The notes beneath the pieces were generated by a model. It worked only from the letters and a program-made list of their open reading frames with translations, searched no databases and was not told the origin of the DNA. Made by a program: the position numbers and the translations under genes. A stretch of DNA of 64,000 nt from Defluviitalea phaphyphila (GTDB lineage: Bacteria > Bacillota > Clostridia > Lachnospirales > Defluviitaleaceae): the NCBI RefSeq assembly GCF_001466305.1, contig NZ_JWID01000002.1, positions 195,344 to 259,343 of the forward strand, in the 5' to 3' direction. Shown here one piece after another: positions 61,378 through 64,000 of the stretch. How positions within the stretch are numbered: the stretch's first letter is position 1; each line of letters starts with the position of its first letter.

Positions 61378-61496
61378 TATTTATTTGCTAAAAAATTTGA
61401 CCTAAATAATAAGATAATGTAACATCAAATTGATTAGATTATGACAAATAGATTTAATAATTTAATATTTATTATTAATATTAGGAGTGATTTTAT

Positions 61497-62330
61497 ATGG
61501 TTTATTTTTTAACAGCTCTATATTATGAAGCTAAGGAAATAATTAAACATTATAAAATGAAAAAAGTTATAGAAGCAAAGAAATTTCAAATTTTCAAAAA
61601 TGATAAATATTATCTTATTATTACTGGGACAGGAGGAATAAAAGCTGCAGTTGGAGCTACTTATTTGCTAAGTAATTTTGGTTATAATGAAAATGATATA
61701 TTTATAAATATAGGTATTTGTGGAGCTAATAAAGAAAAAGCTCATATTGGAGAAATATTTTTATGTAATAAATTAATTAATAAATATACTAAAAAATCCT
61801 ATTATCCAGATATGTTATTTTCTCATTCTTTTAGAGAAGGGTCATTAGAATCTTTTTTAGAAATAGTAGATAAAGATATGATTAAAAATGTAAAAGCTGA
61901 TATAGTGGATCAAGAAGGAGCTTTTTTATACGAAGCAGTATCGATATTCTTAAAACCAGAAAATATTTATATAATTAAAATAGTATCAGATTTTTTAGAA
62001 GCAGATAGTGTTACGCCTGTATTAATAGAAAATTTGATGGCGTCCAATTTGCCAAAGGTATATGAATGGATAGATAAAAGATTGAATATAGAAGATTACA
62101 AAAATGATATAATGAATAAAGAAGAAAATGATATGATAAATATTTTATGTAAAAATATGAAATTAAGCTCAGCTATGGAATATGAATTTAAAAAATTATC
62201 TAAACAATATAAAATAAGAAATGGACAAATCCTTGATTTATTAATAAAATATAAAGATGTTAAATGTAATATAAAAGCTGAAGGGAAAAAAGTTTATGGA
62301 GAGCTTAAGCAAAAACTTATGGAATTATAA
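61497..62330 (+). CDS. MTA/SAH nucleosidase-like protein linked to spore photoproduct lyase
   Basis: 277 residues. The first ~200 residues follow the nucleoside phosphorylase/nucleosidase fold: LITGTGGIKAAVGATYLL-type segment, FINIGICGA, VDQEGAFLYEA and IVSDF. Residues E11, E140 and D165 match the positions of catalytic Glu/Glu/Asp in 5'-methylthioadenosine nucleosidases, so it may be active on a 5'-modified adenosine. The last ~70 residues form an extra helical tail. AGGAG precedes ATG 61497. Its 3' end overlaps the photoproduct lyase gene by 35 bases. Real substrate unknown. Confidence 0.78.
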   Translation: MVYFLTALYYEAKEIIKHYKMKKVIEAKKFQIFKNDKYYLIITGTGGIKAAVGATYLLSNFGYNENDIFINIGICGANKEKAHIGEIFLCNKLINKYTKKSYYPDMLFSHSFREGSLESFLEIVDKDMIKNVKADIVDQEGAFLYEAVSIFLKPENIYIIKIVSDFLEADSVTPVLIENLMASNLPKVYEWIDKRLNIEDYKNDIMNKEENDMINILCKNMKLSSAMEYEFKKLSKQYKIRNGQILDLLIKYKDVKCNIKAEGKKVYGELKQKLMEL

Positions 62331-63309
62331 ATTTTCGCATATTTATGTAGAAAAAGATGCATTAAATTATGATATTTCCCATGATATAATATCTCGGTTT
62401 AAAAAAAGTATACTTATTGAGATAGAACATTATAAAGATGTATTTTGCAGGAAAAATCAAAATTTTATTTTACAGAAAAAAATACCTAAACTTATATTAG
62501 CAGTAAAGAAAGATAATTTTATATATCCTGGATCTAAGATGTGTGATGATTTTGGTAATGATAATTTTTATTATACATCTTTAGTTATGAATTGTATTTA
62601 TGATTGTGAATATTGTTATCTTCAAGGAATGTATCCATCAGGAAATATTGTTATATTTGTAAACATTGAAGACACGATAGAAAAAGTAAAACAAATTTTA
62701 AAAAATAAATCAATATATCTTTGTGTTTCCTATGACACAGATTTAATGGCAATTGAAAACATTACAGGATTTTTACATAAGTGGATTGAAACTGCAAATA
62801 AATATAAAAATTTAAAGATAGAAATAAGAACAAAGAGTGCTGATTTTGAGTATATTAAAGATATTCAGAGTTTGGATAATGTAATTTTAGCATGGACCTT
62901 ATCTCCAGATAAAATTATAAAAGAATTTGAAAAAAATACGCCATCTTTAAATAAAAGACTAAAAAGTATATGTGATGCTATAGATAAGGGATGGAAAGTT
63001 AGAATATGTTTTGACCCTATTCTTTATGTTAAAGATTGGGAAGTTTTATACAAACAATGTATAGAAAAAACTTTTGAGATTATTGGAAAAAGAAAAGTAT
63101 ATCAAGTAAGTAGTGGAGTTTTTAGAATATCAAAAGATTATCTAAAGATAATGAATAAATTAAGAGAAGATTCAAAGATATTGGCCTATCCTTTTCAATG
63201 TAATAATGGAGTTTGTAGTTATAATACGAAACATATTAATAAAATGATGAATTTTATTAAGAATGAAGTAAAAAAATATGTGCCTTTAAAAGATATATAT
63301 TTACAATAA
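62296..63309 (+). CDS. splB: Spore photoproduct lyase
   Basis: 337-residue radical SAM DNA repair enzyme. Iron-sulfur cysteines C100, C104 and C107 are in CIYDCEYC, and C143 in YLCVSYDTDLM lies at the position of the hydrogen-atom donor cysteine of B. subtilis SplB. The N-terminus FSHIYVEKDALNYDIS and the SGNIVIFVNIEDT segment are family features. It reverses the thymine dimer 'spore photoproduct' formed by UV in spores. ATG 62296 lies inside the upstream gene. Confidence 0.92.
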   Translation: MESLSKNLWNYKFSHIYVEKDALNYDISHDIISRFKKSILIEIEHYKDVFCRKNQNFILQKKIPKLILAVKKDNFIYPGSKMCDDFGNDNFYYTSLVMNCIYDCEYCYLQGMYPSGNIVIFVNIEDTIEKVKQILKNKSIYLCVSYDTDLMAIENITGFLHKWIETANKYKNLKIEIRTKSADFEYIKDIQSLDNVILAWTLSPDKIIKEFEKNTPSLNKRLKSICDAIDKGWKVRICFDPILYVKDWEVLYKQCIEKTFEIIGKRKVYQVSSGVFRISKDYLKIMNKLREDSKILAYPFQCNNGVCSYNTKHINKMMNFIKNEVKKYVPLKDIYLQ

Positions 63310-63321
63310 GGAGTTGAACAA

Positions 63322-64000
63322 ATGAAATCAGCAATAGTAACAGGAGCTTCTTCTGGAATAGGTCTTGAAATAACAAAAATGCTTATAAGGAATAATTATA
63401 AAGTTTATGGTTTTGCGAGAGATTTTTCTAAAACAAATTTTGAACATATAAATTTTATAAAAGAAAATTGTGATATAACTAAAACTAATTCGTTGGAAGA
63501 AAAAATTAAAAATATAAAGAAGATGGACAAAAAAATATATATATTAGTTAATAATGCAGGAGTGGGATATTATGGTCCTCATGAAGAAATAAATATAAAA
63601 AATCTTAAAAATATGATAGCAACTAATTTAGAAGCTCCCATTATTTTAAGCCATTTACTTTTAAGAGATTTAAAGAAAAATAAAGGATATATAATAAATA
63701 TATCTTCTGTCACAGCTAAAAAAGCAAGTCCTATAGGATGTGCATATTCTGCTACTAAGGCAGGACTTACTCATTTTAGTGAAAGTTTATTTGAGGAAAC
63801 TAGAAAATCAGGAGTTAAAGTTGTTACAATACATCCAGATATGACAAAAACTAATTTTTATAATAATGCTTATTTTAGAGAAGGAGATTTACCAGAGTCA
63901 TATATTACAGGAGAATGTGTGGCACAAGCTGTAAAGATGATATTAAATCAAAGAGAAGGAACTATATTAACAGATATCACTATAAAACCACAAAAACACA
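63322..64000 (+). CDS. Short-chain dehydrogenase/reductase (3' end missing)
   Basis: The reading frame runs off the window after ~226 codons. A classical SDR: NAD(P)-binding TGASSGIGLEI at residues 7-17, NNAGVGYYG, the serine in NISSVTAKK and the YSATKAG catalytic Tyr/Lys. AAGGAGTTG precedes ATG 63322, and the gap to splB is 12 bases, so it is probably in the same operon. Substrate unknown. The end of the domain (HPDMTKTNF) is typical of the DltE/YqjQ-like subgroup. Confidence 0.9.
   Translation, partial: MKSAIVTGASSGIGLEITKMLIRNNYKVYGFARDFSKTNFEHINFIKENCDITKTNSLEEKIKNIKKMDKKIYILVNNAGVGYYGPHEEINIKNLKNMIATNLEAPIILSHLLLRDLKKNKGYIINISSVTAKKASPIGCAYSATKAGLTHFSESLFEETRKSGVKVVTIHPDMTKTNFYNNAYFREGDLPESYITGECVAQAVKMILNQREGTILTDITIKPQKH

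Follow-up and report, generated by a model that had tools for sequence, protein, structure and literature searches.

A nucleosidase-like gene overlapping a radical SAM gene related to spore photoproduct lyase forms a widespread coupled pair in Defluviitalea phaphyphila and other bacteria

At the end of the 64,000 nt stretch of the Defluviitalea phaphyphila genome analysed here (the window), three genes lie on the same strand, encoding a nucleosidase-like protein (nuc), a radical S-adenosylmethionine (SAM) protein resembling spore photoproduct lyase (SPL) and a short-chain dehydrogenase/reductase (SDR). Nuc and the SPL-like protein are a widespread and tightly coupled pair, often a trio with the SDR. 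Overlap or fusion of the two genes, their mutual restriction, their modelled folds, conserved catalytic residues and the loss of canonical SPL features form the basis for reading the pair (the module), with a probability of about 0.5, as an obligate two-protein radical SAM system. This system would usually be joined by the SDR, be distinct from SPL and not tied to sporulation, and its predicted substrate is not spore photoproduct.

Among 391 genomes of the class, 54 carry a module locus, 337 are without the module and 60 hold canonical SPL only. A second set consists of 80 named loci, the best 80 of at least 571 tblastn-confirmed family stretches in a genome collection; their phylum labels are Bacillota (68), Fusobacteriota (5) and Lentisphaerota, Spirochaetota and Chloroflexota (1 each), with 4 unassigned. 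The two sets, minus 11 duplicates, give 123 distinct module loci, and 20 canonical clostridial SPL loci (L091–L110) serve as controls. Row sets A2 and A3 hold 56 of 75 and 56 of 80 available named rows, respectively, plus the window.

A nuc homologue is found no more than 124 nt upstream of, or in-frame with, the SPL-like gene at all 54 survey loci, an adjacency far above chance; three of these partners have lost the nucleosidase core and one is split by frameshifts. Nuc is likewise linked at 76/80 named loci, the exceptions being L139 (an open reading frame (ORF) in between), L147 (contig end), L164 (nuc 2.9 kb upstream) and L184 (none). The neighbourhood survey proposed in a preliminary description of the window, made from the sequence alone, thus finds the neighbourhood conserved. 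None of the 20 control loci has nuc or the module SDR within ~4 kb. At an E value of 1e-10 the nuc profile matches 54 of the 391 genomes, namely 51 module genomes and 3 others in which the matches are short and N-terminal only (43–74 bits). One of the latter is a 203-aa 5′-methylthioadenosine/S-adenosylhomocysteine (MTA/SAH) nucleosidase (MTAN).

The coupling extends to the reading frames themselves. Among the 123 loci, 105 overlaps are unavoidable by any usable start codon, 6 pairs are fused and 1 is without overlap; the remainder have no start codon found (7), lie far apart (2) or have no match (2). The frame relation is identical in 106/106 separable pairs. The most frequent overlap is 29 nt (46 loci), and the 35 nt overlap read in the window beforehand, which the ORF coordinates bear out, occurs in 21 loci. 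Fusion of nuc to the SPL-like gene amounts to four changes on the SPL tree, with an extra case in Fusobacterium vincentii. A module-type SDR (>200 bits) is adjacent at 80/123 loci, and cut or frameshifted at 3, so that its suggested place as a third member is frequently seen. There is no conserved fourth gene; recurrent neighbours are common to small sets of loci only. In L139, from Fusobacterium mortiferum, the ORF between nuc and the SPL-like gene (L139:5323-5979) encodes 218 aa and overlaps the nuc stop.

The SPL-like protein has the SPL fold and is a separate subfamily from SplB. Its AlphaFold model (pLDDT 94) matches Gt SPL (4fhc) with Z 34.8 and rmsd 2.2 over 313 residues, whereas the best non-SPL entry reaches 15.7; structural matches here and below are among the families in the Foldseek and VIA lists. 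Against the SplB equivalog TIGR04070 it scores 91.4 bits, short of the curated cut-off of 400, and against TIGR03886 (SPL family protein) 52.5 bits, short of 437.55; seven of eight control SPLs score 437–551 bits against TIGR04070 and one scores 243. SPL-profile matches in the 391 genomes form two groups, one of 54 genomes that score ≥211 bits and another of 60 genomes that score ≤90 bits. The CX3CX2C cluster cysteines (C100/C104/C107) and Y106 (Bs Y97) are present at 123/123 module loci, and position 108 (Bs Y99) is Tyr in 108/123 and Phe in 15/123. R236 is likewise invariant (123/123) and replaced by Gly in 20/20 controls, while a SYDxD motif occurs at 118 of 123 module loci and at 0 of 20 controls. 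The canonical C-terminal motif KYGxFGxxKYxY, to which lesion binding is attributed, is found at 0/123 module loci versus 19/20 controls. The partner does not appear to be the SplB that had been proposed.

The C141-type motif of Bacillus SPL is also absent from all 123 module loci, as the C141-type Cys is from clostridial canonical SPLs. The hydrogen-donor Cys of Clostridium acetobutylicum SPL is C74, according to an excerpt of PMC5368176. Across a 3-residue length difference, MAFFT aligns C83, present in 118/123 module loci, with the clostridial SPL Cys; C83 is a probable equivalent of this C74-type residue, going by the alignment. The five exceptions are L162, L164, L165, L167 and L184, a group that includes both loci in which nuc is unlinked (L164) or absent (L184). 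In a further SPL-type group (L091, L092, L093, L095 and L106) C83 is replaced by Val and the C-terminal motif is short and of GRGKY type; within it, L091 scores 243 bits against TIGR04070, below the cut-off, and L091 and L092 adjoin genes presumed to be dihydrofolate-reductase-like.

Nuc was described beforehand as having the MTAN fold with catalytic residues E11, E140 and D165 and a C-terminal helical tail, and all of these are recovered. The AlphaFold model (pLDDT 95.1) matches MTA/SAH nucleosidases over residues 1–202 (Z 24.8, rmsd 2.2, 196 aligned with 2h8g) and contains the helical tail at residues ~205–275. E11, E140 and D165 occupy the MTAN catalytic positions, presumably E12, E174 and D197 in E. 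coli MTAN. Conservation among 125 aligned relatives is 124 for E11, 125 for E140, 120 for D165, 125 for K161 and 124 for D138; these rows retain duplicates between the survey and the named set and omit four survey loci (L062, L063, L084, L090) and five named loci (L137, L147, L180, L184, L186) whose sequences are too short, split or absent. By profile, nuc passes PF01048 (27.4 bits, gathering cut-off 25.1) with residues 6–98, its N-terminal half, only; 44/57 relatives match this family at E 0.001. It falls below TIGR01704 (MTA/SAH nucleosidase; 13.7 bits, cut-off 73.8), and its best NCBIfam match is the futalosine hydrolase TIGR03664, at 36.4 bits under a cut-off of 124.7.

Nuc also has parts of its own. 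A loop, YPD(I/L/M)..HPFxE, spans residues 98–114, the window nuc reading YYPD at Y102–D105, and the tail carries K260, E262 and K264, of which K260 and E262 are near-invariant. A segment of ~40 residues including the SGDxF motif of MTAN is missing. This loss need not abolish activity, because the 203-aa MTAN mentioned above is also without much of the segment. The latter gene (L194:3480-4606) directly adjoins what is presumably a luxS-like gene; its product matches the nuc profile and has neither tail nor SPL-like partner.

The module does not appear to be tied to sporulation, and is distinct from the SPL system. Spo0A was found in 0/5 genomes of the Fusobacteriota module loci. Small acid-soluble spore protein (SASP) genes, tallied per genome from profile-match lists and compared, as were the MTAN tallies below, by Fisher tests, occur in 39/54 module genomes versus 222/337 without the module (0.44), and in 55/60 genomes with canonical SPL only versus these same 39/54 (0.007). 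A motif resembling the sigma-G consensus at 11 of 12 positions precedes 11/111 module operons versus 8.75 in shuffled sequences, the scan taking in 111 of the 123 loci, and thus shows no enrichment; as a positive control, it precedes 11/20 canonical clostridial SPL genes versus 1.9 in shuffles. The best score of the window operon is 10 of 12 positions. The germinating spore is thus not supported as the setting, and a sigma-G dependence of the operon, which the preliminary description proposed to check, finds no support in the promoter motif. Additionally, module proteins lack the canonical C-terminal motif and have gained R236, both of which speak against spore photoproduct as the substrate.

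Relatives that have lost catalytic residues, named beforehand as something that would count against the proposed pairing, are a minority: of the 54 survey partners, three have lost the core and two carry D165G. The former (L063, L084 and L090) lack the regions bearing E11, E140 and D165 and retain the overlap with the SPL-like gene. A fourth case, in an unverified faecal ‘phage’ contig (L192:2805-4969), shows the order SDR, 164-aa core-lost partner, SPL-like gene. All four core-lost partners keep the YPD..HPFxE loop and the tail. Since the SPL tree puts L063 and L084/L090 in two lineages, and L192, which is off the tree, may be counted as a third, core loss is inferred in at least three lineages. 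The L192 contig is probably bacterial DNA; two ‘phage’ records matched, both unverified faecal contigs, and were not taken as evidence of phage carriage. D165G occurs in two genomes (L041/L043, identical to L124/L126) and D165C in one Fusobacteriaceae metagenome-assembled genome (L146), the nucleosidase being otherwise conserved in each. Among the 15 loci with Phe at position 108 of the SPL-like protein no lost core or lost D165 was found, too few rows to carry meaning.

Each of the five survey genomes with a defective nuc holds a housekeeping MTAN above the TIGR01704 cut-off, versus 12/49 other module genomes (Fisher p 0.002); the class background is 157/337 genomes without the module. This is suggestive, as a lead from sequence comparison, that the nucleosidase activity may be replaceable by a housekeeping MTAN and the docking parts may not.

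A mechanism can be proposed along the following lines. The SPL-like enzyme would cleave SAM to a 5′-deoxyadenosyl radical and convert some substrate that is not spore photoproduct, with C83 as a possible hydrogen donor in the manner of C74 of C. acetobutylicum SPL. Nuc would dock on the SPL-like enzyme via the YPD loop and the C-terminal tail and hydrolyse released 5′-deoxyadenosine in place, giving adenine and 5-deoxyribose. The SDR, the weakest point of the scheme, would probably reduce a product carbonyl or feed the substrate. Removal of 5′-deoxyadenosine, as first suggested, stays the most plausible role for nuc, and 5′-deoxyadenosine inhibits radical SAM enzymes (PMC8102628, in part). In the Bacillus SPL mutants Y99F and C141A one SAM is consumed per turnover, as given in an excerpt of PMC3742179; an SPL relative without C141, and sometimes with Phe at the Tyr, may therefore release 5′-deoxyadenosine in every cycle, which would explain a dedicated nucleosidase. 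A bolder version, put forward tentatively and with less confidence than the two-protein system itself, is that of an anaerobe two-subunit radical SAM enzyme in which a captured MTAN, now an obligate subunit, destroys 5′-deoxyadenosine as it forms and holds the catalytic subunit through loop and tail. Spore photoproduct repair would not be its function, and core-lost subunits would survive as docking proteins in several lineages.

Several observations weigh against a nucleosidase-assisted two-protein system. The core or D165 has been lost in some lineages, and the nucleosidase reaction is thus not always needed; the association of these losses with a housekeeping MTAN spans ~3 lineages, a phylogeny-corrected test having 2–3 pairs only. 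L184 is without a linked nuc and in L164 nuc is 2.9 kb distant. The SDR is absent beside 40/123 loci, and a close SDR is encoded elsewhere in only 3 of the 25 genomes that lack an adjacent one. Nuc activity, the substrate of the SPL-like enzyme and a complex of the two are themselves predictions from sequences and models.

The losses bear differently on two other explanations. If nuc were mainly a structural or activating subunit with incidental hydrolase activity, core-lost partners that retain overlap, YPD loop and tail would be expected, as would the D165G clade; retention of E11 in 124/125 and E140 in 125/125 relatives, and the confinement of survey defects to genomes with a housekeeping MTAN, make this quite improbable as a general account. 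A short route akin to the futalosine pathway, in which a nucleoside formed by the radical SAM enzyme is split by the nucleosidase to free the base and the SDR reduces the remainder, has several matches in its favour. Futalosine hydrolase is the top NCBIfam match of nuc (if below its cut-off), the structural matches of nuc include CT263 and the futalosine hydrolase of H. pylori, MqnE is among the weaker Foldseek matches of the SPL-like model, and the SDR is often the third gene. However, a pathway-essential step should persist, yet at least three lineages have lost the nucleosidase core; there is no further conserved neighbour, and the fold matches of nuc are mostly named MTA/SAH nucleosidases. 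This route is considered unlikely.

Two further explanations are very improbable, and about equally so. A helper keeping SPL active in germinating spores would suit the fold, which matches Gt SPL at Z 34.8, and the host genome, which has SASP genes and no canonical SPL and in which the module adjoins spo0A. It is contradicted by scores below both SPL equivalog cut-offs, the C-terminal motif (0/123 versus 19/20 controls), Fusobacteria without Spo0A, the lack of SASP association and of sigma-G-like enrichment, and a second, canonical-type SPL match in 11/54 module genomes. Salvage of 7-deazapurines (queuosine) parallel to QueK/QueL, where QueL is a radical SAM enzyme, would have the nucleosidase free a base and the radical SAM lyase trim it. 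TGT is present in 51/54 module genomes, but is near-universal in the class (256/274), and its co-occurrence is uninformative. Rfam gave no match at gathering threshold in 20 loci, preQ1 riboswitch included, and hence no riboswitch hint to the substrate. Neighbour clusters recur at few loci and may include TGT or transporter genes. QueK/QueL is similarly composed, although QueK belongs to a different family, IPR023186, on the excerpts of PMC11477304 and PMC11130926. A defence system was also considered and rejected, there being no PADLOC match for nuc or the SPL-like protein.

The features at the window end are collected in Table 1. Upstream of nuc lie spo0A, identified by Pfam, and a gene taken from its sequence to be spoIVB. 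In the extended contig the full SDR has 249 aa (L005:13666-14415). The 2.54 Mb host genome encodes three further PF01048 proteins, including a housekeeping MTAN at 231 bits, and carries three SASP matches; a profile search found no second SPL-type match in it. Elsewhere in the host genome (L005:16743-18709) a translation-factor-like GTPase, presumably resembling ribosomal protection proteins, is apparently split into two overlapping frames.

Table 1. Features of the module and its surroundings in the window
Feature	Position	Strand	Basis
Shine-Dalgarno-like AGGAGTG, just 5′ of nuc start	61483..61489	+	Read in sequence; inference
nuc, MTAN-fold nucleosidase-like, 277 aa	61497..62330	+	ORF, Pfam, alignment, model
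Coding overlap of nuc and SPL-like gene, exactly 35 nt	62296..62330	+	ORF coordinates
SPL-like radical SAM enzyme, 337 aa	62296..63309	+	ORF, profiles, model, alignment
GGAG, ribosome-binding-site-like, immediately 3′ of SPL-like stop	63310..63313	+	Read in sequence; inference
SDR-family reductase, runs beyond window end	63322..64000	+	ORF, Pfam, extended contig

Against 5′-deoxyadenosine, cells presumably depend on nucleosidases of general function. If the proposed role is true, a dedicated nucleosidase, overlapping or fused, would be a built-in answer to by-product inhibition and could usefully be employed to drive radical SAM catalysis. Additionally, some genes labelled splB or spore photoproduct lyase in Clostridia, Lachnospiraceae and Fusobacteria may in fact encode another enzyme that has no part in sporulation; the family comprises at least 571 stretches, of which the best 80 were examined.

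Both folds are known. Searches of open-access literature turned up no account of the obligate pair, its fusions, its range or its core-lost partners, and no system of such composition was recognised there, in keeping with what was first supposed. QueK/QueL is alike in its make-up of nucleosidase and lyase; unlike the module, it has an IPR023186 nucleosidase and lies in a preQ1-riboswitch operon with a transporter, to judge from the excerpts of PMC11477304 and PMC11130926. With SplB (TIGR04070, PF20903; PDB 4fhc, 4rh0) the SPL-like protein shares the fold, the cluster Cys, Y106, Y108, K180 and D149. It differs in its 16–17 % identity, its lack of the C141-type motif and of KYGxFGxxKYxY, R236 in place of Gly, an obligate nucleosidase partner and the absence of a link to spores. 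With MTAN (Pfs, TIGR01704), nuc shares over residues 1–202 the fold and the E/E/D catalytic set; it differs in its ~17 % identity, the missing ~40-residue segment with SGDxF, the YPD loop and C-terminal tail peculiar to it, and its pairing with an SPL-like gene in a host genome that has a separate MTAN. Futalosine hydrolase is a PNP-superfamily nucleosidase in a pathway with the radical SAM enzymes MqnE and MqnC; the partner in the module is of SPL type, and nuc remains at 36.4 bits against a cut-off of 124.7. The biotin synthase of E. coli, as Choi-Rhee and Cronan reportedly found in 2005, to go by the title, needs the Pfs nucleosidase, and is likewise a radical SAM enzyme aided by an MTAN. 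Pfs acts there in trans as a general housekeeping enzyme, whereas the nuc of the module is a dedicated partner, overlapping with or fused to the SPL-like protein it accompanies.

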